Below, in pieces: positions 10,998-28,803 of a stretch of 64,000 bases of DNA; within the stretch, counting starts at the first letter, position 1; every line of letters starts with the position of its first letter. The notes below the pieces were generated by a model, which saw only the letters and a program-made list of their open reading frames with translations, did not search any database and was not told the DNA's origin. The translations under genes and the position numbers were made by a program. Where the stretch lies: contig NZ_OZ061549.1 of assembly GCF_964065165.1 (NCBI RefSeq), forward strand, positions 1,798,001 to 1,862,000, written 5' to 3'. This DNA is from Levilactobacillus yonginensis (GTDB lineage Bacteria > Bacillota > Bacilli > Lactobacillales > Lactobacillaceae).

Positions 10998-15705
<4,708 letters not shown>

Positions 15706-15775
15706 AGTAGAGTTGGTGTTCTCAAAGGAAATAATTGAATAATATCTAGTTTTGAGAGAAGAAGTTCTTTCATAG

Positions 15776-15893
<118 letters not shown>

Positions 15894-15900
15894 AAGAGTA

Positions 15901-15928
15901 AGGAATCCAGTGATGGATTCCTTTTTTT
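15901..15928 (+). terminator. Terminator of the first rRNA operon
   Basis: AGGAATCCA, loop GTGA, TGGATTCCT, then a run of six Ts. An IS30-family element begins two bases beyond the T-run. Confidence 0.95.
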
Positions 15929-15930
15929 AT

Positions 15931-17050
15931 GACGAATTGTCAAATCAAGTGTAACTTTGTCCCAAAGAAAACTTCAGATGGACTCTTCCAGCCTAAAATC
16001 TTGCGTGGTCGGTTATTTAGCACTTCAACGAACTGATAAATATCTTGGTCAGTGAGCTGATCTAAATCGGTTCCCTTGGGGAAGTACTCACGAATAAGGC
16101 CATTGGTATTCTCATTGGTTCCCCGTTGCTGGGGCGCATGTGGATCTGGGAAATAGACTGGAATACCAAGTTCTTGACTAACTTCGCGGTATCCTGCGAA
16201 TTCAGTTCCACGATCCGGCGTAAGCGTACGAACTCGTTTGGGCGTCACAGTATGCAGTAGGTCAATCATAGCTTGCGTGACGTTCTTGGCGTTTACTTTG
16301 GAAACTCGTTGAGACAATAAGTACCGTGATTTACGGTCCACCAATGTAACCAAAGCTGAACGCCCAGTTTTACCCCGAACGGTGTCGCCTTCCCAATGGC
16401 CGAACCAGCTCCGTTTATTACACGAAACTGGTCGTTCATGAACTGAAAGAACTTCGTTAAACCGACCACGTCGTTCGTTAACCGTTCCTTTGACCTTACG
16501 GGTTTTGCCACGGTGGCGCAACTTTCGGGCAAAACCACGAGCACCGTGACTCTTGCGTTTAATCCCTAAATTATCGAGTTTAATTCCGCGATAAATAGTA
16601 TTGTAACTGATTTGCCATTCGCTATTTTCGTGAACTAAACGGCCTGAGATTTGTTCCGGAGACCATTGGCATTGAACGATGCGGTGAAGGACAAAATCTC
16701 GTAGTTTCAAGTCAGCTAAGATCCTAGGACGTCGGCTTTTCAGTCGCCGTCTCTGATAGTTCTCTTGTGCTTTGACAGCTGAATATGCATCACGGCCACC
16801 GTTGCGCTTAATTTCGCGTGATACGGTGGCTTTTGAGCAGCCAATTTTCTCCGCAATACCTTGATAAGTATCGTTTAAAGTGACTCCTAACAGTATGCAT
16901 TCTCGGTCTTTTAAGGTAAGATGATTGTACGGACTCATAGCCTAAGATCTCCTTTAAGTGATTGTTGTGGTGACTTCATTTTACAGGACTCAGGCTATGA
17001 GTTCTTTTTTATTTTCTTCTTACTTGTTGCACTTCAATTGTAAATTCGTC
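15931..17050 (-). mobile_element. IS30-family insertion sequence, complete
   Basis: This is about 1120 bp, bounded by imperfect inverted repeats of about 26 bp. The left end begins GACGAATTGTCAAATCAAGT; the right end, on the complement, begins GACGAATTTACAATTGAAGT. AT flanks both ends and is the likely 2-bp target duplication. The unoccupied site is visible after the second rRNA operon at 25374-25375, where the T-run and AT are followed by unrelated sequence. One intact transposase gene fills the element, and its stop codon lies inside the left repeat. The intact gene and matched ends suggest a recent insertion. Confidence 0.93.
15940..16938 (-). CDS. IS30-family transposase
   Basis: This is 332 residues, the usual length for the family. 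An N-terminal helix-turn-helix region (about 8-45) includes IAEKIGCSKATVSREIKRN, which binds the element ends. The DDE catalytic triad is visible as D185 in GHWEGDTV, D242 in LTPDRGTEF and E276 in TNENTNG, with the 33-residue D-E spacing typical of IS30. The C-terminal NNRPRKILGWKSPSE motif is also characteristic. No frameshift or internal stop is present. The gene reads toward the rRNA operon, so its own transcript would meet rrn transcription head-on. Confidence 0.96.
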   Translation of the reverse strand: MSPYNHLTLKDRECILLGVTLNDTYQGIAEKIGCSKATVSREIKRNGGRDAYSAVKAQENYQRRRLKSRRPRILADLKLRDFVLHRIVQCQWSPEQISGRLVHENSEWQISYNTIYRGIKLDNLGIKRKSHGARGFARKLRHRGKTRKVKGTVNERRGRFNEVLSVHERPVSCNKRSWFGHWEGDTVRGKTGRSALVTLVDRKSRYLLSQRVSKVNAKNVTQAMIDLLHTVTPKRVRTLTPDRGTEFAGYREVSQELGIPVYFPDPHAPQQRGTNENTNGLIREYFPKGTDLDQLTDQDIYQFVEVLNNRPRKILGWKSPSEVFFGTKLHLI

Positions 17051-17411
17051 ATACAAAAAATTAAAAGAAGGTCGGGCGCATGACCATAACGACAGTGTGC
17101 CCGGCGACTAAGTGGCGTCAAAAACAAAACGGACGTGTAGCTTCAGATGATTTTCTTGAGCTACTGTTACGGTTTCTATCTATGTATCAGGGAAACGTGC
17201 AAACGAATCAAAATCATAATAAGTCATGGACGGTATCTTGCGTTGACGGTACGCTTTCAGATTCTATAATGCTTGGGTTGGGGATGGTCCAATTCAGACA
17301 TTGATGCGTAGGTGAATTGACACTTATTTCAAATTGCCGATAATAATCGCACGCACTACTGTCAAAAGAGAGCACTTGCCAACTAAGCAAGATTAGAAGA
17401 ATAGTCAATTT
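17051..17411. other. Intergenic stretch after the IS30 element; no gene supported
   Basis: This is the original downstream flank of the first rRNA operon, displaced by the IS30 element. Reading frames exist on both strands but none has a credible start with a ribosome binding site. One minus-strand frame has a signal-peptide-like N-terminus but begins at a TTG without a binding site and runs through a terminator. I see nothing functional here. Confidence 0.6.
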
Positions 17412-17456
17412 AAAAAGGTAACGGCACTTCAATGCAGGAAGGTCGTTACCTTTTTT
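17412..17456. terminator. Terminator of the XRE regulator
   Basis: AAAAAGGTAACG pairs with CGTTACCTTTTTT across a loop of about 20 bases. On the minus strand it lies about 40 bases after the regulator's stop. Confidence 0.8.
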
Positions 17457-17494
17457 GTGAGCAGTTACAGTAGTCCTTATAGATGACGATCACT

Positions 17495-18079
17495 CTAGCG
17501 TTGTGTAACCTTAGTTGATCGCGATTGCCAGTACTTTCTGACCAATGCAATGAAAACGACCAGGCCACTGAATTGGCAGGTCGTCATTAGGCCAAAGCCC
17601 ATGTTAAAGGCGTTGATGCTCCCACTAACAAGACTGAGTGTGGCAAATACCGTTAAGCCAATCCAATGTATCCGCTTCGTCCAAGTGTTCGGGTGGCGCC
17701 GGGCAATGCCCAAGTTGAGCATAAGACCGATCAGCAAGAGGATGAGAAAGTCCATCCAGTAAAGAGCAAGGAACGTTGAAAATTGGGTGACGCGTTCCAC
17801 TAGGAGAACGCCGAAGAGGACTACTAATAGGCTGGCGTTTGGGTAGGTAACTGGTTTCGTTATGGGTGCGGTTGCTGTGTCCTGTAAGAGGTTATCTACC
17901 GGGACGGCATATAGAGTAGCTAATTGGGCAATGGTGGCGATGTCCGGTTGGTTCCGGCCAGTCTCCCAGCTGGAAACGGTCTGCCGTGAGACGTGTAGTT
18001 GGTCTGCCAGTGCCGTTTGGGTCAGCTGTTGCGTTTGTCGGAATTTCTTCAAACGTGCGCCTAGTTCTGTCGATGCCAT
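17495..18079 (-). CDS. XRE-family regulator with a C-terminal membrane domain
   Basis: This encodes 194 residues. An N-terminal Cro/CI-type helix-turn-helix at about 8-62 shows LADQLHVSRQTVSSWETGRNQPD. It is followed by four hydrophobic segments between about 84 and 185, so the DNA-binding domain is anchored to the membrane. This architecture is frequent beside ABC exporters and is thought to sense membrane or peptide stress (inference). The gene is divergent from the ABC exporter at 18222-19901. An AATAGCAA motif in the shared 140-bp region, once inside an inverted repeat, is a candidate operator. A paralogue with the same layout is at 30489-31124. Confidence 0.88.
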   Translation of the reverse strand: MASTELGARLKKFRQTQQLTQTALADQLHVSRQTVSSWETGRNQPDIATIAQLATLYAVPVDNLLQDTATAPITKPVTYPNASLLVVLFGVLLVERVTQFSTFLALYWMDFLILLLIGLMLNLGIARRHPNTWTKRIHWIGLTVFATLSLVSGSINAFNMGFGLMTTCQFSGLVVFIALVRKYWQSRSTKVTQR

Positions 18080-18104
18080 GGGGGCACCTCACTTCCTTGA
18101 TAAT

Positions 18105-18152
18105 TGCTATTGACTCTATCATAGAGAATCGTCTGGAAATAGCAAGCTATTC
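18105..18152. promoter_or_regulatory. Candidate operator in the XRE-ABC divergent region
   Basis: AATAGC-AA-GCTATT (18138-18151) is a 6-2-6 inverted repeat. The half-site AATAGCAA recurs on the opposite strand near 18106 (TTGCTATT). The sites lie between the two divergent starts and overlap plausible promoter elements for the regulator (TTGCTA, 18 bases, TGATAG on the minus strand). Confidence 0.4.
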
Positions 18153-18221
18153 TCGCTAGCATCCGTATCATTCGGGGATTTGAACGGGTACGCTGAAAGG
18201 GAGTGGAGGAGATGATGTCCA

Positions 18222-19124
18222 GTGCAAAATGGACAAGCGAAAATGGTTCAGGTAACCGGGCTACGAAAAAGGTTCGGTCGCCATGTGGTCTTGCGTGATG
18301 TGAATTTCGCATTTTCAACTGGTGAAGTTGTCGGCTTAGTTGGGCCCAATGGTGCGGGTAAGACGACTATTATGAAAGCATTATTGGGCCTGCTAGCCAC
18401 GGATGCTGGCAACGTTCGAATTTTGGGACAACCCGTTTCAGTCAATACCCATACTGTTGTGACCCAACAGGTCGGCGCGCTCATCGAACACCCAGCAATT
18501 TATCCATTTCTGACCGGCTGGCAACATTTGCAACTGATGACGACTTCCGTGGAACAAATGACGTGGGTAGTGCAGGCCCTCCAAATGGAAGCCTATATTC
18601 ACCGGCCGGCCAAACGATATTCACTAGGCATGAAGCAAAAACTGGGAATTGCCATGGCGTTGGTGAATCGCCCACGGTTAGTCATATTGGACGAACCGAT
18701 GAATGGATTAGACCCCCAATCGGTTAAGCGACTACGCCATTTGATTGGTCAGTTGGCAGGGGAAGGGACCACATTTTTAATTTCCAGCCATATTTTGAGT
18801 GAGTTGGAAAAGATCATTGATACGGTGATCTTAATTGATCAGGGAGAAGTGTTGCTTCAACGGACGATGACGCAACTTCGGGAATCGGCGCGGCAGGGAT
18901 TAGTGGTGCGGACAACGGAAAATGCTCGAGGGTTGCAGGTGCTTTTACGGGCAGACTATCCAGTAACACAGCGGGGCAGCAACTTAATCGTGACGAAGTC
19001 GGTTGCGTTGACGCCCTTACTGCGTACCCTTCTCGACGCGCATCTTCAAATTTTAAAGGTAAATCAGCACCGGGAAGATTTAGAGACAGTCTTGTTACGC
19101 TTATTGGCAGAGAGGAAGGCATAG
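18222..19124 (+). CDS. ABC transporter ATP-binding protein, BcrA type
   Basis: This is a 300-residue single nucleotide-binding domain. Walker A GPNGAGKTT is at about 41-49, the degenerate signature YSLGMKQKLGIA at about 133-144, and Walker B VILDEP at about 154-159, followed by the D-loop. YSLGMKQ in place of LSGGQ is typical of the bacitracin/lantibiotic-export (BcrA/SpaF-like) branch. The GTG at 18222 is chosen because GGAGG lies 12 bases upstream; an internal ATG at 18243 lacks a site. The permease gene starts 3 bases after its stop. It probably exports or excludes a peptide or other membrane-active agent, with the divergent XRE protein as regulator (inference). Confidence 0.93.
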   Translation: MQNGQAKMVQVTGLRKRFGRHVVLRDVNFAFSTGEVVGLVGPNGAGKTTIMKALLGLLATDAGNVRILGQPVSVNTHTVVTQQVGALIEHPAIYPFLTGWQHLQLMTTSVEQMTWVVQALQMEAYIHRPAKRYSLGMKQKLGIAMALVNRPRLVILDEPMNGLDPQSVKRLRHLIGQLAGEGTTFLISSHILSELEKIIDTVILIDQGEVLLQRTMTQLRESARQGLVVRTTENARGLQVLLRADYPVTQRGSNLIVTKSVALTPLLRTLLDAHLQILKVNQHREDLETVLLRLLAERKA

Positions 19125-19127
19125 ATC

Positions 19128-19901
19128 ATGGGACAATTAATTCAGCAGGAGATTTTTAAATTTAGACACCAACGTATGGCGTGGCTAGCCCCCGTCATCT
19201 TGGTGCTTTTAATGGGCGGACTGGCCATGACGGCCCACGGCGCATCAGTCAGTGATCAGAAATTTTATATTTCATCGGCGTATGGCGGGTTTCAATGGCT
19301 GACGATGCTTATCATTGTGATTGGCGCTAGCTGTGTGACAATGGAATTCGAGTATGGGACGATCAAACAGTTGGCGACGCAGGTGAATCATCGCTGGACG
19401 ATTTTTGTGGGGAAGTATGTACTAGTTCTCGGGTGTAGCGTGTTAGGTCATGGGTTGGCCATCCTCGTGACACTATTGCTCAAGACTAGTGCTGGGCGGG
19501 GCCTACACTGGCAGACCATTTACCTCTATCACCAATCACTATTGGCTAATCTAGTGACTAATGCGGGGCTGGATATGTACGGTGGTGTGATGATTATTGG
19601 ACTGGTTTTCTTGCTGGCAAGCTGTAGTCATAACAATGCGGCGGCAATCGCTATTAGCATGGGTGTCTGTTTCATGGGGGAAGGGGTATCCAGTTTGTTA
19701 TTGCAGTCGTTTAAGTCGTTATTGCCAGTGATGAAATGGAATCCGTTTAACATGTTCTTCTTACAGGAGGAGTATGCTAATCCCAGTTATCAGCAGAATG
19801 TGACCCATTTGACGATCCAGCAGTTGAGTGTCGGCAGTCTTGGGTGGGCGTTATTCTTTGTAGCGGTCGGTGCGGTGATCTTTTCGAGACGGCGGATTTA
19901 G
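19128..19901 (+). CDS. ABC transporter permease, six membrane helices
   Basis: This encodes 257 residues with about six hydrophobic segments. The first (about 18-36) follows a short cytoplasmic N-terminus, QQEIFKFRHQR, the usual start of ABC-2/lantibiotic-immunity permeases. The central EFEYGTIKQLATQ resembles the conserved cytosolic helix of BcrB-type permeases (E-x-x-x-GT-x-K). It begins 3 bases after the ATPase gene, so translation is coupled, and the two form an exporter. No third subunit follows. A two-component system, common with BceAB-type exporters, is absent, and the membrane-linked XRE protein is the only regulator in sight. Confidence 0.87.
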   Translation: MGQLIQQEIFKFRHQRMAWLAPVILVLLMGGLAMTAHGASVSDQKFYISSAYGGFQWLTMLIIVIGASCVTMEFEYGTIKQLATQVNHRWTIFVGKYVLVLGCSVLGHGLAILVTLLLKTSAGRGLHWQTIYLYHQSLLANLVTNAGLDMYGGVMIIGLVFLLASCSHNNAAAIAISMGVCFMGEGVSSLLLQSFKSLLPVMKWNPFNMFFLQEEYANPSYQQNVTHLTIQQLSVGSLGWALFFVAVGAVIFSRRRI

Positions 19902-20059
19902 GTTTGGCCGGAAACATGAGTTGCAAATTAGACATACTGATAAGCGTCACGGCGACATCCTACCAAAAGAGACTTCTGGCCCGTGATATGGGGAGAGTGA
20001 GGGACGGGCCTGGAGCCGCTACCAACGATGGGGTTATCGATATTAATTTGGAATTTTTG
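19902..20059 (+). other. Gap between ABC permease and second rRNA promoters
   Basis: No gene is supported here. A frame extending from the 3' end of the permease has no start site. A clear terminator was not identified after the permease, so read-through into the rRNA operon is possible. Confidence 0.5.
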
Positions 20060-20262
20060 TTGACACTGAAACCATGTGCATGGTATATTATCTAAGTTGT
20101 CTTTTACGACAGCGGCTCGTTAATTTAAAAAGTTAAATTGCTTGTTGACAAGCGGTCTGACAAAATGGTATATTAATTGAGCTGCTTCATTAGGCAGCCT
20201 GCAATTCACAGTTTAATTAACTTAAACTTATTGTTGACATCATATTGATTGAATGATATGAT
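20060..20262 (+). promoter_or_regulatory. Three tandem promoters of the second rRNA operon
   Basis: TTGACA(20060)-18-TATATT(20084), TTGACA(20145)-18-TATATT(20169) and TTGACA(20234)-17-TATGAT(20257). The first two have full consensus -35 boxes and differ in surrounding sequence from operon 1. The third lies in the shared repeat. Confidence 0.87.
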
Positions 20263-20442
20263 TATTAAGTTGTCTGCGAGAGCAGATAACTGGTAGACCT
20301 TTGAAAACTGAACATTGTTTCGACAAACCAAATATGTGTAGGGCGGTTTGATACTTGGTATCAAACCCAAACAATATTTGCGAAGTCAATTCGCTTTTAA
20401 AAATGTAACAACAATCGATGAGCTATTCAAGCACATCATCTA

Positions 20443-25150
<4,708 letters not shown>

Positions 25151-25220
25151 AGTAGAGTTGGTGTTCTCAAAGGAAATAATTGAATAGTATCTAGTTTTGA
25201 GAGAAGAAGTTCTTTCATAG

Positions 25221-25338
<118 letters not shown>

Positions 25339-25345
25339 AAGAGTA

Positions 25346-25373
25346 AGGAATCCAGTGATGGATTCCTTTTTTT
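25346..25373 (+). terminator. Terminator of the second rRNA operon
   Basis: AGGAATCCA, GTGA loop, TGGATTCCT and a T-run, as in operon 1 but without the insertion. Confidence 0.95.
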
Positions 25374-25560
25374 ATACCATAAAATATACAAAAATTGTAA
25401 TAGCGTACATTAATATGTGAATATTAGAAGAATATACGGCTGAGGTGGTTTGCCAAACGGAAGGCTTGTGCTATTATAGTTGTTATTACAAGATTTAGGA
25501 CAACTTGAGTTATTAGTCAACTCGTAAGATCTTACATAAGAGAGAATAGGTGGAATGAGA

Positions 25561-26850
25561 ATGAAAAGATATCGACAGTATCGTCTTAGCCTAGGTTGGC
25601 AGATTTTAATTGGATTAATTCTAGGGGTCATCCTTGGTGTGATTTTTTACCAAAACAAAATGGCTATCACCGCTATGCAAAATATCGGGAACATGTTTAT
25701 TGGGTTGATTCAAATGATCGTTCTACCCATCGTGGTGTCCTGTTTAACCGTCGGAATCGCTAACATGGGTGATATTAAGCAGTTAGGTCGAATCGGCGGT
25801 AAAACGTTGATTTATTTCGAAGTAATGACCACCATCGCGATTGCTTTGGGGTTACTGGTTGGGAATATTTTCCAGCCTGGTTCATTCATTGATATTCACC
25901 AACTGCAAAGTACCGACATCAGTCAGTATGTGTCTTCCGCTAAGTCAGCTAAGGACTCGGGCATTTGGGCAACGTTGATGGGAATTATTCCGACTAACAT
26001 ATTTAAGTCTCTGGCAGAGGGTGACATGATGCCTGTCATCTTCTTCTCCGTTTTCTTTGGGTTAGGGACTGCGGCCATCGGAAAACAGGGTCAGGTCATC
26101 ACACAAGCGTTAGACGCCGTCTCGCAGGTGATGTTCCGGGTGACTAATTGGGTTATGCATACTGCACCAATCGGTGTCTGCGCGTTAATCGGAGTTACTG
26201 TGGCGCAAATGGGTTTATCCGCATTAGCACCATTAGGGTATTTCATCATCTTGGCTTACGCAACCATGGCAGTGTTCGTCTTGGTTGTAATGGGAATTGC
26301 TGCTAGAATCTTTAAATTCAGCCTCAAGGACCTGTTATTTGTGATTAAAGATGAAGCGGTCCTGGCATTCTCAACCGCTAGTTCCGAAGCTACACTACCA
26401 CGGTTGATTGATAAAATGGATAAATTTGGGGTCAGCAAGGGAATTGTCTCCTTCGTTATCCCAACCGGATATACCTTCAACCTGGATGGTTCAGCTATCT
26501 ATCAATCGTTGGCCGCACTCTTCTTAGCACAGGCCTACCATATTCATCTGAGTTTGGGTCAACAGATCACGTTACTGGTGGTGCTGATGATTACTAGTAA
26601 AGGGATGGCCGGTGTGCCAGGCGCTTCATTTGTGGTGTTACTAGCTACGATTTCAACGATTGGGGTTCCAATGAGTGGTTTAACCTTTATCGCTGGGATT
26701 GACCGTCTCGTTGATATGGGTCGGACGGCAGTTAACGTTGTTGGGAACTCGCTGGCAACGGTAATTATTGCCAAGTCCGAACATGAATTTGATGAAGGTA
26801 AGAGTCAGAAATTCCTAGAACATATGAAAAATCGGCGGGCTAAAGCCTAA
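25561..26850 (+). CDS. Dicarboxylate/amino acid:cation symporter (GltP/GltT family)
   Basis: This takes up glutamate, aspartate or C4-dicarboxylates with protons or sodium. The best start is the ATG at 25561 (429 residues, MKRYRQYR), 8 bases after AGGTGG; the ATG two codons earlier is too close to that site. About eight membrane segments are present. The family signatures are visible: STASSEATLP (about 280), the substrate-binding PTGYTFNLDGSA at about 305-316, and GVPGASFVVL near 357. It is monocistronic, placed directly after the second rRNA operon and before a terminator. Substrate preference cannot be told from sequence alone. Confidence 0.93.
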   Translation: MKRYRQYRLSLGWQILIGLILGVILGVIFYQNKMAITAMQNIGNMFIGLIQMIVLPIVVSCLTVGIANMGDIKQLGRIGGKTLIYFEVMTTIAIALGLLVGNIFQPGSFIDIHQLQSTDISQYVSSAKSAKDSGIWATLMGIIPTNIFKSLAEGDMMPVIFFSVFFGLGTAAIGKQGQVITQALDAVSQVMFRVTNWVMHTAPIGVCALIGVTVAQMGLSALAPLGYFIILAYATMAVFVLVVMGIAARIFKFSLKDLLFVIKDEAVLAFSTASSEATLPRLIDKMDKFGVSKGIVSFVIPTGYTFNLDGSAIYQSLAALFLAQAYHIHLSLGQQITLLVVLMITSKGMAGVPGASFVVLLATISTIGVPMSGLTFIAGIDRLVDMGRTAVNVVGNSLATVIIAKSEHEFDEGKSQKFLEHMKNRRAKA

Positions 26851-26872
26851 TAAATAAAAATTGTGTGATATT

Positions 26873-26908
26873 TGGTGTTGATGGAGAAATCCAGCGACAC
26901 CATTTTTT
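26873..26908 (+). terminator. Terminator of the symporter gene
   Basis: TGGTGT and ACACCA arms enclose a loop of about 20 bases, followed by TTTTTT, about 22 bases after the stop codon. Confidence 0.65.
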
Positions 26909-27107
26909 GTAGAATAAAAGGGACACACTGCCCCACATCAACATAGTCGACCAAAACCAATTGAAAATGACAATATATCCCAAGACCAGTTTTAAAAAAA
27001 TCTCCTACAGATTAAAGACCAAGATATTAATCATTTTAAAGTTCGGGATAATTCTCAGGATGCTTTACAGAGCTACGCTGATCTGTCTTGCTCCACTTGC
27101 TAAGGCT
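26909..27107. other. AT-rich intergenic stretch; no gene supported
   Basis: No reading frame has a ribosome binding site. A 76-codon plus-strand frame from 26961 runs through the strong hairpin at 27108-27154 and is rejected. Confidence 0.5.
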
Positions 27108-27154
27108 AAAAAAAGCAGCCGTTCAATTCATCGAGAATTGAACGGCTGCTTTTT
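27108..27154. terminator. Very strong bidirectional terminator
   Basis: GCAGCCGTTCAATTC pairs perfectly with GAATTGAACGGCTGC around a five-base loop. Flanking A and T runs extend it to about 20 bp. It lies downstream (minus strand) of the M-box transcript and is its most likely end point. Confidence 0.88.
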
Positions 27155-27456
27155 GCGTATTGAACGCTTGGGAATACCAGCTCATCAATAACGCAGGACA
27201 ACGCGTGCGGGGTGATTCCCATCAGCCCATGGGCAGTTGACAGTTGTTATTGATAACCAGTGATTGGTTTGGTATTGAGTTATTCGTATCGACCATTAGA
27301 AGTTAAAAACCAACTTATTTGAAACGGCGTCAGTTACTGGTTATTTTCCTCCCCACAGGGTTCCCCCAATGGTGAAGCATCGTCACGAGTGGTAACGCTA
27401 TTCGGACTAGCACGTCAATGCATCATAGTTGAATAGTGCCGAGAAAAAGACGTAAC
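27155..27456 (-). other. Downstream part of the M-box transcript; no convincing gene
   Basis: This lies between the second small ORF and the terminator. Only frames of 16 to 24 codons were found on the minus strand, without ribosome binding sites. It could be a 3' untranslated region or a decayed gene. Confidence 0.4.
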
Positions 27457-27597
27457 TCAAGCTTGTGTTTTCCAGGTAAGAGGCTTGAATCCAACTAGCT
27501 CACGAACGAGTTCAGAGAAGGCCAAACGAGTTACGGTCGGTTGCAACGCCGACAGCGTTTGGGATAAAGTGGCTAGTTGATTCTGTTTAAAGTCCAT
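27457..27597 (-). CDS. Small ORF B (46 codons) downstream of the M-box
   Basis: This encodes 46 residues, beginning MDFKQNQLATLSQTLSALQ and ending PLTWKTQA. A GGAGG lies 8 bases before the ATG. The sequence is predicted as amphipathic helix with regularly spaced Leu and Val; it has no signal peptide and no clear membrane segment. It starts 62 bases after small ORF A on the same strand and would be in the same M-box-controlled transcript. I recognise no family. It could be a small regulatory protein, a peptide toxin-like product, or the remnant of a longer gene. The good ribosome binding site and ordinary codon choice support translation. Confidence 0.5.
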   Translation of the reverse strand: MDFKQNQLATLSQTLSALQPTVTRLAFSELVRELVGFKPLTWKTQA

Positions 27598-27659
27598 TAG
27601 TCGAACCTCCGCATCAAGCTACGGGGTCCGGGAAAGGGAAAGCTAGAGTAATGTTCTTC

Positions 27660-27752
27660 TCAAAGCGTCAACCAAGAGGTGTGAACAGACTGTAACTTTC
27701 CCACCGGCGAGTAATAACACGCTCCGGGATCATCTAAAAGTTGCGTTGTCAT
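27660..27752 (-). CDS. Small ORF A (30 codons), first ORF after the M-box
   Basis: This encodes 30 residues, starting MTTQLLDDPGACYYSPVGKL and ending HTSWLTL. The ribosome binding site AAGGAGGTGAT (27758-27768 on the complement) is an 11-base perfect complement of the 16S 3' end and lies at ideal spacing. It is the strongest such site I noticed in the window. The ORF begins about 50 bases after the M-box terminator hairpin, exactly where the regulated gene should start. The peptide is soluble-looking, has one Cys and resembles nothing I know. It may be a functional small protein, a leader peptide, or the stub of a lost transporter gene. Confidence 0.6.
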   Translation of the reverse strand: MTTQLLDDPGACYYSPVGKLQSVHTSWLTL

Positions 27753-27803
27753 GTTCAATCACCTCCTTAATGTATTGACGACAGTGACAACTGGCGATAA
27801 ATT

Positions 27804-27833
27804 AAAAGCGCTTAGCCATAACTAGCTAAGCGC
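27804..27833 (-). terminator. Expression-platform terminator of the M-box riboswitch
   Basis: On the minus strand GCGCTTAGC pairs with GCTAAGCGC (27825-27833 with 27808-27816) across an 8-base loop and is followed by TTTTAATTT. The 5' arm and loop contain TTAGCTAGT, exactly complementary to ACTAGCTAA at the 3' edge of the aptamer (27862-27870), giving a mutually exclusive antiterminator. Confidence 0.85.
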
Positions 27834-27860
27834 ACACTGAAAGACATTTTGTGAACGGAA

Positions 27861-28026
27861 TTTAGCTAGTCGTTGAGTTTTAGCACTATACGGCGTAGTT
27901 AATTGTTCATAACAGCTACATTAGAGCAGGCCTTAATTTGACCTGACCAGCTGACTCATTGGCGTTTCTCGACGTTTCTGAGCAGTAGCATTTTCCGTAT
28001 AGGAGCCTCACCTAACAGCTTCTAAT
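27861..28026 (-). promoter_or_regulatory. M-box (ykoK leader) magnesium riboswitch aptamer
   Basis: The minus strand carries the conserved M-box core in order: GTTAGGTGAGGCTCCT (28001-28016), then ATGCT and CTGC, ACGCCAATG, GTCA, GTAGCTG, and finally GTATAGTGCTAAAACTC with ACGA. The TTAG...CTAA ends can form the closing P1 stem. The match to the B. subtilis mgtE leader, from memory, extends over nearly every conserved block. M-boxes bind several Mg2+ ions and switch off downstream transcription when Mg2+ is plentiful. Usual targets are Mg2+ transporters (mgtE, corA, P-type ATPases). None is present here; two small ORFs follow instead. Confidence 0.92.
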
Positions 28027-28040
28027 TTATCTATGAATCT

Positions 28041-28069
28041 AGTTTAACGTATTTTTCCACCCAACGCAA
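28041..28069 (-). promoter_or_regulatory. Probable promoter of the M-box transcript
   Basis: On the minus strand TTGCGT (28064-28069) and TAAACT (28041-28046) are 17 bases apart. Transcription would start just upstream of the aptamer. The -10 matches consensus at four of six positions. Confidence 0.5.
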
Positions 28070-28093
28070 GCAAAACCGTTCATACCCATTAAA

Positions 28094-28108
28094 TAATAAT
28101 TATTGTAA
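28094..28108. promoter_or_regulatory. Candidate PerR box between the M-box and ahpC promoters
   Basis: TAATAATTATTGTAA matches the Bacillus PerR consensus TTATAATNATTATAA at 12 of 14 defined positions. It lies between the divergent M-box and ahpC promoters and could affect either. Confidence 0.4.
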
Positions 28109-28157
28109 CTAACTAAGCGTCCAATACACCGAAATATGGGATGTTTTAGCGCCTACA

Positions 28158-28198
28158 TTAGAATGATTATTGATAAAAGAAGCTAAAACAGTTATGCT
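28158..28198 (+). promoter_or_regulatory. ahpC promoter with overlapping second PerR-like site
   Basis: TTGATA (28170-28175) and TATGCT (28193-28198) are 17 bases apart. TTAGAATGATTATTG (28158-28172) matches the PerR consensus at 11 of 14 positions and overlaps the -35 box, a position suited to repression. Confidence 0.5.
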
Positions 28199-28239
28199 GG
28201 GAGTGTGCCAAAACGACATAACTGAAGGGAGTTGTTCAT

Positions 28240-28803
28240 ATGAATTTCATTGGTTCAGCTTTACCAGATTTTTCGGTTCAGGCGTTTCAAAAAGGGGAGG
28301 TTACAACCTTAACGCCAGCCGATTTAAAGGGTCATTGGTCAGTCTTATTCTTCTATCCCGCTGACTTTTCATTTGTTTGTCCAACGGAGCTGGGAGACTT
28401 AGCCGAACATTATGCTGCCTTTCAAGCACAGGATGCAGAAATCTATAGTATTTCAGAGGACACAGAATTTGTTCATCAAGCTTGGCACGAACAGAGTCCA
28501 GAAGTGGGGCAGGTAGCCTATCCCATGATTGCTGATCCAGCCGGTCAATTAGCACGGCACTATGAAGTCTTAGATGAGTCTGCCGGTCAAGCTTACCGAG
28601 GTGTTTTTATCTTAGACCCACAGGGAGAAGTTCGGTCGTACACCATCAATGATATGGGAATTGGCCGCAATGCTGGTGAAATTCTACGGACTTTAACGGC
28701 GGCTCAATTTGTGGCGGAGCACGGTGATCGGGTTTGTCCAGCTAACTGGCACCCTGGCGAAGAAACTTTAAAACCAGGGACGAATCTTGTTGGTAAAATT
28801 TAA
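28240..28803 (+). CDS. ahpC: Alkyl hydroperoxide reductase C, typical 2-Cys peroxiredoxin
   Basis: This cytoplasmic peroxidase (187 residues) reduces H2O2 and organic hydroperoxides. The peroxidatic Cys47 is in FYPADFSFVCPTE and the resolving Cys166 in VCPANW, with the PGEETLKPG tail of the AhpC subgroup. An AAGGGAG site precedes the ATG by 8 bases. No ahpF follows, so it must use another disulfide reductase. The gene is monocistronic, ending at a strong hairpin. Two PerR-like boxes upstream suggest peroxide control, and the promoter region is shared divergently with the M-box transcript. Confidence 0.95.
   Translation: MNFIGSALPDFSVQAFQKGEVTTLTPADLKGHWSVLFFYPADFSFVCPTELGDLAEHYAAFQAQDAEIYSISEDTEFVHQAWHEQSPEVGQVAYPMIADPAGQLARHYEVLDESAGQAYRGVFILDPQGEVRSYTINDMGIGRNAGEILRTLTAAQFVAEHGDRVCPANWHPGEETLKPGTNLVGKI

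Follow-up and report, generated by a model that had tools for sequence, protein, structure and literature searches.

An orphan M-box riboswitch of Levilactobacillus precedes a conserved small open reading frame and a structured RNA whose fold may be gated by translation

In a window of 64,000 nucleotides (nt) from Levilactobacillus yonginensis (contig NZ_OZ061549.1, positions 1,798,001 to 1,862,000), an M-box (Mg2+) riboswitch is followed by a small open reading frame (ORF) of 30 codons and by approximately 500-550 nt of structured RNA, which ends at an intrinsic terminator. Positions given below are those of the window, and features are on the minus strand unless stated otherwise. We consider it probable that this locus produces a Mg2+-regulated noncoding RNA, the fold of which is gated by translation of the small ORF as a leader peptide. 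The components of this reading, namely an aptamer, a terminator, a possible antiterminator, a conserved ORF, covarying RNA and alternative pairings, can be recognized in the sequence. From these we infer the activities: switching by Mg2+, translation, ribosome drop at an early [DE]PG motif, control of folding by ribosomes, and an RNA as the output.

The aptamer (27858-28026) matches RF00380 over the full length of the model (positions 1-169 of 169), with a cmscan score of 134.3 bits against a gathering threshold of 44 and an E value of 4.8e-30, and the genome holds no second match. A promoter-like TTGCGT (28069-28064)-N17-TAAACT (28046-28041) was read directly upstream of it, and TTGC and TAnA are kept in the consensus of a 29-locus alignment. 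Downstream, a hairpin followed by TTTT forms a predicted intrinsic terminator (27833-27804), with a hairpin present in all rows listed from that alignment. The 3′ part of the aptamer, CTAGCTAA (27869-27862), is the exact 8-nt complement of TTAGCTAG (27829-27822) in the 5′ part of the terminator, and this complement may represent the antiterminator. Judged by sequence alone, the expression platform of an M-box, consisting of terminator and antiterminator, is thus present. By standard M-box logic, the aptamer would fold at high Mg2+ and transcription would stop at 27833-27804; at low Mg2+ the 3′ strand of the aptamer would form the antiterminator. The full RNA, mostly noncoding, would then be made; counted from the predicted promoter, it measures about 930 nt and ends at a second intrinsic terminator (27151-27108), whose hairpin and T-run close the module in the alignment rows listed.

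A gene for a Mg2+-related protein is the usual target of an M-box, although it is no part of the aptamer definition. Such a gene is absent here: the ORF list of the window contains no minus-strand ORF of more than 46 codons between the M-box and the 3′ terminator. A preliminary description of this DNA had reported a full M-box core with a promoter upstream, a terminator behind it and no transporter gene, all of which is borne out by the Infernal match and the direct reading. M-boxes were found in 33 of 35 Levilactobacillus genomes (genus g1), in 23 of 24 genomes of genus g14 and in all 15 of genus g20. The two remaining Levilactobacillus genomes are G027, which has no match to a Levilactobacillus signature described below, and G008, which is 72% complete and has three 15-mers with one mismatch. 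The set of 71 orphan M-box loci from the three genera leaves out a second M-box of genome G004 (L004, G004:C5:301289-301452), which is located before a permease-like ORF of about 467 amino acids (aa) that reaches the end of the stretch read. Mechanically defined ORFs of at least 60 codons begin within 540 nt of the stop codon of the small ORF in 21 of the 71 loci (4 in g1, 10 in g14, 7 in g20). The longest has 134 codons, several overrun the terminator or read a convergent gene backwards and, among the top six per genus, inspection revealed none that is common to different genera.

The 30-codon ORF (MTTQLLDDPGACYYSPVGKLQSVHTSWLTL; 27752-27660, from the A of the ATG to the end of the stop codon) has a Shine-Dalgarno sequence, AAGGAGGTGA (27759-27768), and DDPG at codons 7-10. 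In all 71 loci, an unbroken ORF of 26-33 codons with DPG is found, and a Shine-Dalgarno sequence lies within 18 nt 5′ of its ATG. This count uses the true start codon also for L060 and L133, where the regions used for the covariation, hairpin and pairing tests were cut at an ATG inside the ORF. Length differences between loci are whole codons. Single-base codon changes, counted along a minimum spanning tree, show an excess of synonymous changes in g14 (62 synonymous and 68 nonsynonymous, with an expected synonymous share of 0.251; p=2e-8) and in g20 (30 and 44; p=0.003). This conservation supports the view that the small ORF is translated. Apart from [DE]PG and a G(K) farther on, the peptide diverges much between genera, most strongly in the C-terminal part in g14 and g20.

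The preliminary description had proposed a Mg2+-regulated operon of two small peptides. While its 30-codon ORF with Shine-Dalgarno sequence is thus conserved behind the M-boxes, the second one is not. A 46-codon ORF exists in the window (27597-27457), but of the 33 Levilactobacillus loci just 2 keep its ATG. At the same site, L006, L007, L008 and L194 show a frame of 46-52 codons with a TTG or GTG start, and in the remaining 27 the frame does not exceed 32 codons. A second peptide was therefore rejected and, because the second ORF is unconserved, a two-peptide operon was dismissed.

Between the small ORF and the 3′ terminator, the three genera share RNA elements despite little sequence identity between them. 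Among these is a core domain (27345-27449), which scores 39.8 bits (E 6.8e-9) with model R1, built from g14 alone, and 76.6 bits with model R2, the training set of which includes the window locus. In g14 (23 of 23 sequences, 110 columns), 26 pairs are predicted in the core, of which 14 are changed on both sides. Here, 96.8% of the cells are paired, compared to 87.6% upon shuffling and 33-49% in slid controls, and none of 500 shuffles attains the observed pairing or double-sided change. Folding of 28 of the 33 Levilactobacillus sequences resulted in 17 predicted pairs, six of them with double changes; g20 was left out of folding. Within the core domain lies a hairpin with a bulged A and a GNRA-type loop, CUUC-A-CCNNNNNN-GGAA-NNNNNNGG-GGAG (27349-27377). 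Its general form is CUUC, the bulged A, CC, a stem of variable sequence, the GGAA loop, GG and GGAG, and a fuzzy pattern recovers it in each of the 71 loci. An ungapped model fits 65 of these, representing 43 distinct forms, and the other six are outside the counts: the paired fraction is 0.878 (shuffle mean 0.776, maximum 0.804), and eight pairs show double-sided change (shuffle mean 4.7, maximum 8). Farther downstream, a 27-nt signature of Levilactobacillus, CCCATGGGCTGATGGGAATCACCCCGC (27207-27233), contains a TGAT-GGGA-ATCA hairpin and occurs exactly in 28 contigs, 27 of them titled Levilactobacillus and one from a metagenome-assembled genome.

No Rfam 15 family exceeds its gathering threshold for the downstream RNA in the window or in loci L255, L256, L258 and L260. 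At E<=10, the window RNA is matched just by models of such kinds as microRNAs, snoRNAs and short sRNAs, plus one cis element, and most of these matches fall on the terminator hairpin. Known families (OLE, GOLLD, ROOL and 6S were considered) were rejected, there being no match at the gathering threshold.

When model R1 was applied to 24 loci from g1 and g20, 22 matched with E<=0.005, L067 matched with E 0.19 and L068 did not match; among 24 M-box loci of other genera there was no match up to E 10. Over the family genomes, R1 has matches in 47 of 301, and R2, made from 60 aligned hits in seven genera, in 60 of 301, representing the same 7 of 40 genera with one match per genome. Over the order, R2 matches 8 of 295 genomes, all from the same family as L. 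yonginensis. Four genera (g23, g26, g32, g36) have the RNA module without an M-box match. All 18 R2 hits in these genera were read: 17 have a Shine-Dalgarno sequence and an ORF with DPG as identified by script, and L262 has a Shine-Dalgarno sequence and EEPG. Because the genome-wide searches (about 300 genomes) were run with stricter filters, at the cost of weak matches, the lack of an M-box in these genera means that there is no search match and that the M-box core motif is absent from the 396-600 nt upstream of 17 of the 18 loci. Reading showed a terminator in each of the five M-box-less loci that were viewed whole (L255, L256, L258, L260, L262) and, by eye, L255 and L256 have a TTGACA-N17-TATATT promoter. 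As four genera keep the module without an M-box, the unit consists of the ORF together with the RNA, to which the M-box is an optional addition at the front.

The small ORF and the RNA behind it are connected by predicted pairings that would exclude each other. Segment 1 (27693-27705) is located in the second half of the ORF and is complementary to segment 2 (27636-27648; CTCTAGCTTTCCC), which follows just past the stop codon and was defined by alignment and pairing tests. Segment 3 (27452-27464) is an alternative partner of segment 2, and the AGTTAC within it can pair, in addition, with segment 4 (27326-27337; GTAACTGACGCC), located past the core hairpin. The 1:2 pairing is predicted at -12.8 kcal/mol in the window and has z<-2, relative to mononucleotide shuffles, in 32 of 33 g1, 23 of 23 g14 and 14 of 15 g20 loci. 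By the same measure, 2:3 pairing is found in 22 of 23 g14 and 9 of 15 g20 loci, with segment 3 about 115-150 nt off in most rows. When segments were left free, the weaker of the two helices was below all six of its own shuffles in 19 of 23 g14, 12 of 15 g20 and 17 of 18 M-box-less loci, the best windows not always being the named segments. L262, the letters of which are almost wholly different, keeps 1:2 at -15.9 kcal/mol (mean of 200 shuffles -3.9, minimum -12.0) and 2:3 at -23.8 kcal/mol (mean -6.2, minimum -13.2) for segments chosen by eye before scoring; it fails the free-segment scan, its segment 3 being nearer than the 40-nt minimum set there. The 3:4 pairing in g1 is AGUUAC:GUAACU in 29 of 33 loci, with the compensated forms AAUUAC:GUAAUU and AGUAAC:GUUGCU once each and two cases with one mismatch.

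The trp and erm leaders are ribosome-mediated attenuators with 1:2, 2:3 and 3:4 pairing, and the arrangement found here likewise places segment 1 within the leader ORF. It differs in that 3:4 would close a conserved domain rather than a terminator, and in that no regulated gene lies behind it before the terminator of the window. Segments 1-4, as predicted, thus follow the logic of an attenuator without a gene behind, the 2:3 half of which is weakly supported in Levilactobacillus. We propose that the ORF at the start of the RNA is translated mainly as a gate. With no ribosome on segment 1, 1:2 would form, segment 3 would be free to pair with segment 4, and the core domain would be closed; with ribosomes over segment 1, segment 2 would capture segment 3 and the core would be opened. 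At low Mg2+, the early [DE]PG may pause or drop ribosomes, as in MgtL. The output would be the RNA itself, which is probably regulatory.

Several results weigh against this proposal. Mutually exclusive helices with one strand in the ORF are supported in g14, in g20 and in the M-box-less genera, but support is weak in g1, the genus of the window: 2:3 has z<-2 in 11 of 33 loci and reaches only -7.9 kcal/mol in the window, the proposed segment 3 is the best partner of segment 2 in 9 of the 17 g1 rows listed, and the free-segment scoring places the weaker helix below all six shuffles in just 10 of 33 loci. The mononucleotide shuffles behind the z-scores and the choice by eye in L262 count on the same side, as does the free-segment scan, which tried twice as many windows on real as on shuffled sequence and so favours the observed values. 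The 3:4 duplex is predicted in 18 of 18 M-box-less loci, at -8.4 to -19.6 kcal/mol and without a shuffle control. The codon changes in the g1 ORF (28 synonymous and 57 nonsynonymous, p=0.10) are not significant on their own; its third positions may lie under RNA helices. A phylogeny-aware covariation script returned a single significant pair, found in g14 and belonging to the terminator; g1 and g20 yielded none. With this strict test nearly null, covariation rests on the shuffle and slide controls, in which relatedness is incompletely modelled. DPG is a Mg2+ sensor by analogy only, and a single DDP is weaker than the EPDP of MgtL; a Mg2+-sensing role of the peptide via [DE]PG is offered as a tentative suggestion. 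Finally, the four genera that have the module but no M-box imply that the module may respond mainly to a signal other than Mg2+.

The conserved ORF could also be taken as the product. Small proteins of Mg2+ stress exist, MgtS of enterobacteria being an example, and the downstream structure might merely stabilize or regulate the mRNA of such a peptide. The ORF and its Shine-Dalgarno sequence, intact not only in the 71 orphan loci but also in the 18 M-box-less ones, and the synonymous excess in g14 and g20 would be expected from this; however, the peptide varies much between genera outside the two short motifs, segment 1, the partner of segment 2, is itself part of the ORF, and the conserved RNA continues for about 550 nt beyond the stop codon. 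We therefore regard a small stress peptide as an unlikely explanation and retain the translation-gated RNA.

The origin of the locus is illuminated by M-boxes elsewhere in the family. Thirteen other genera of the family that have M-boxes were examined, and in 12 of them a P-ATPase-like gene, as recognized by a loose pattern, lies behind one or more M-boxes. At the cut-off of TIGR01524 (MgtA), none of 35 Levilactobacillus genomes passes, all 35 having weaker P-ATPase matches (best 448.6 versus 610.75 bits). Taken together, this indicates that the transporter was probably lost from the Levilactobacillus locus. A P-ATPase-like ORF begins 150-760 nt downstream of 57 M-box loci. Their leaders contain, in 42 cases, an ATG ORF of 12-60 aa with a Shine-Dalgarno sequence (mean of dinucleotide shuffles 11.8, maximum 20) and, in 37 cases, one with two or more acidic residues among positions 2-13 (mean of 200 shuffles 3.2, maximum 9); on the reverse strand, four ORFs and no acidic one were found. 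The loose pattern admits L050, which has an ABC gene, and a small number of doubtful loci such as L169 and L211. Six loci (L093, L094, L095, L226, L228, L230) were dropped as they have no recognizable core, and leaders with a Shine-Dalgarno sequence, length or start outside the criteria (e.g. L051, L052, L054, L055, L219, L220) were scored as misses.

The peptides of these leaders usually start with MDDSS, MEDSE or MDESP, and in genus g21 with MKHEPLPGPADPDDRPRRVSF. Short ORFs of the MDDS/MEDS/MDES type with a Shine-Dalgarno sequence were seen in L174, L177, L178, L180, L182, L185, L192, L193, L209, L231, L232, L234 and others, and such ORFs in M-box leaders of Lactobacillales likely constitute a family of MgtL-like leader peptides. 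In view of these acidic short ORFs before P-ATPase-like genes, the small ORF of the orphan loci most likely derives from a leader peptide. Its DPG has counterparts in g12 (five of six leaders read, with DPR in L091), and SKPGA is found in three of three leaders of g13, both before proteins of 259-298 aa. Three of these proteins contain weak P-ATPase pieces according to Pfam, with just Cation_ATPase_N of L057 over the cut-off.

A collection of short P-ATPase-like proteins (225-312 aa) is encoded behind M-box leaders in g13 (L043, L057, L058), g12 (L070-L072, L089-L091), g11 (L051) and g25 (L052, L054, L055). Six of them were read whole and are without DKTGT; such proteins are possibly regulatory stubs or decaying mgtA. 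L050 combines an M-box with a leader ORF (MTDTSNPSSSSNDIPNQRKTTHF...) and a 480-nt leader before an ORF resembling an ABC transporter ATPase. In L045, an M-box leader of about 700 nt precedes a P-ATPase gene and has, by eye, three tandem copies of a unit of about 120 nt.

That related genera show an M-box, a leader ORF and then full or truncated P-ATPase-like genes, and that no Levilactobacillus genome passes the MgtA cut-off, would also fit a relic, i.e. an MgtA leader which lost its gene and decays without function. Against this stand the ORF, unbroken in all 71 loci, the 14 of 26 core pairs that are changed on both sides, the exact 27-mer in 28 contigs and the retention of the module without M-box in four genera, so that we consider a relic very improbable. 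The related view that the small ORFs are degraded pieces of a transporter, which had been named in the preliminary description as what would speak against its proposal, is rejected: the leader ORF is intact in each orphan locus, and P-ATPase-like genes are separate genes behind leader ORFs elsewhere.

The region beyond the 3′ terminator offers another alternative. A dicarboxylate-symporter gene (25555-26850; Pfam SDF, 415 bits) is convergent with the RNA and might be regulated in cis by read-through or 3′ overlap at a shared two-way terminator. By eye, the same gene adjoins the module in L038, L044, L255, L256, L258, L260 and L262, but not in L037, L041, L047 and L059, and no conserved element was seen past the terminator. 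A cis device is thus quite improbable. Just past the terminator (26903-27087), stretches of 92-148 nt resemble DNA of ISL3-family transposases from lactobacillus plasmids, with 70-79% identity among the matches listed, and this region is a probable insertion-sequence remnant. Two complete 16S-23S-5S operons are located on the plus strand (10998-15892 and 20443-25337), about 9.4 kb apart, and some 2.5 kb separate the second of them from the M-box. A tRNA gene search of positions 15700-28300 found none.

Riboswitches that precede an RNA instead of a protein gene have a precedent in the small RNAs of the Rli55/EutX type. These have a cobalamin riboswitch and an ANTAR-protein target and, to our knowledge, no leader ORF. 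The locus shares with the M-box/ykoK leader (RF00380) the aptamer and the terminator with a possible antiterminator; it differs in that a structured RNA and a small ORF, instead of a Mg2+ transporter, PE/PPE or other protein gene, lie before the 3′ terminator. Alternative leader structures also occur in the leader of MgtL. As described in PMC11282234, MgtL of enterobacteria acts in the mgtA leader through an EPDP motif and intrinsic ribosome destabilization. In both systems, a leader related to Mg2+ contains a short ORF that has acidic and proline residues near its start, although MgtL is enterobacterial, is without M-box and controls mgtA. Such a short leader ORF with a Shine-Dalgarno sequence and early acidic and proline residues is present here, and its Mg2+ responsiveness is suggested by the M-box; mgtA does not follow in the window, while P-ATPase-like genes follow in other genera. 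By analogy, MgtL appears as the nearest functional precedent for the small ORF.

An M-box-controlled small ORF, considered as new in the preliminary description, is not wholly so, as a conserved case from Mycobacterium tuberculosis was published in 2026: according to PMC12810186, the pe20 M-box controls the conserved upstream ORF rv1805A, most homologues of which have proline at position 7. There, an operon (pe20 and others) follows, with a translational and Rho platform, while here the terminator is intrinsic and no gene is found downstream. The part of PMC3766115 available to us lists 48 M-boxes and has nothing on orphans in its text, and the word 'Lactobacillus' is absent from the main text of PMC8632094. 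We found no report of this RNA or of M-box leader peptides in these bacteria, which is weak evidence, most subscription papers not being covered.

With some reserve, we suggest that the locus may belong to a new class of bacterial noncoding RNA, the active fold of which is switched by ribosomes on an internal leader peptide, so that the system would sense translation, and hence Mg2+ or ribosome fitness, and would have the RNA as its output. The M-box placed in front in three genera would provide two Mg2+-responsive gates on one RNA, and the class may descend from control of MgtA by an M-box and an acidic leader peptide across Lactobacillales. If this is true, an M-box would have a noncoding RNA as its output, and the module would be a gene-less attenuator, in which translation of a leader peptide sets the fold of a regulatory RNA. 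The data further suggest that, in Lactobacillales, acidic leader peptides resembling MgtL are frequent in the M-box leaders of P-ATPase genes, and ribosome-based sensing of Mg2+ outside enterobacteria would thereby become directly testable in food bacteria.
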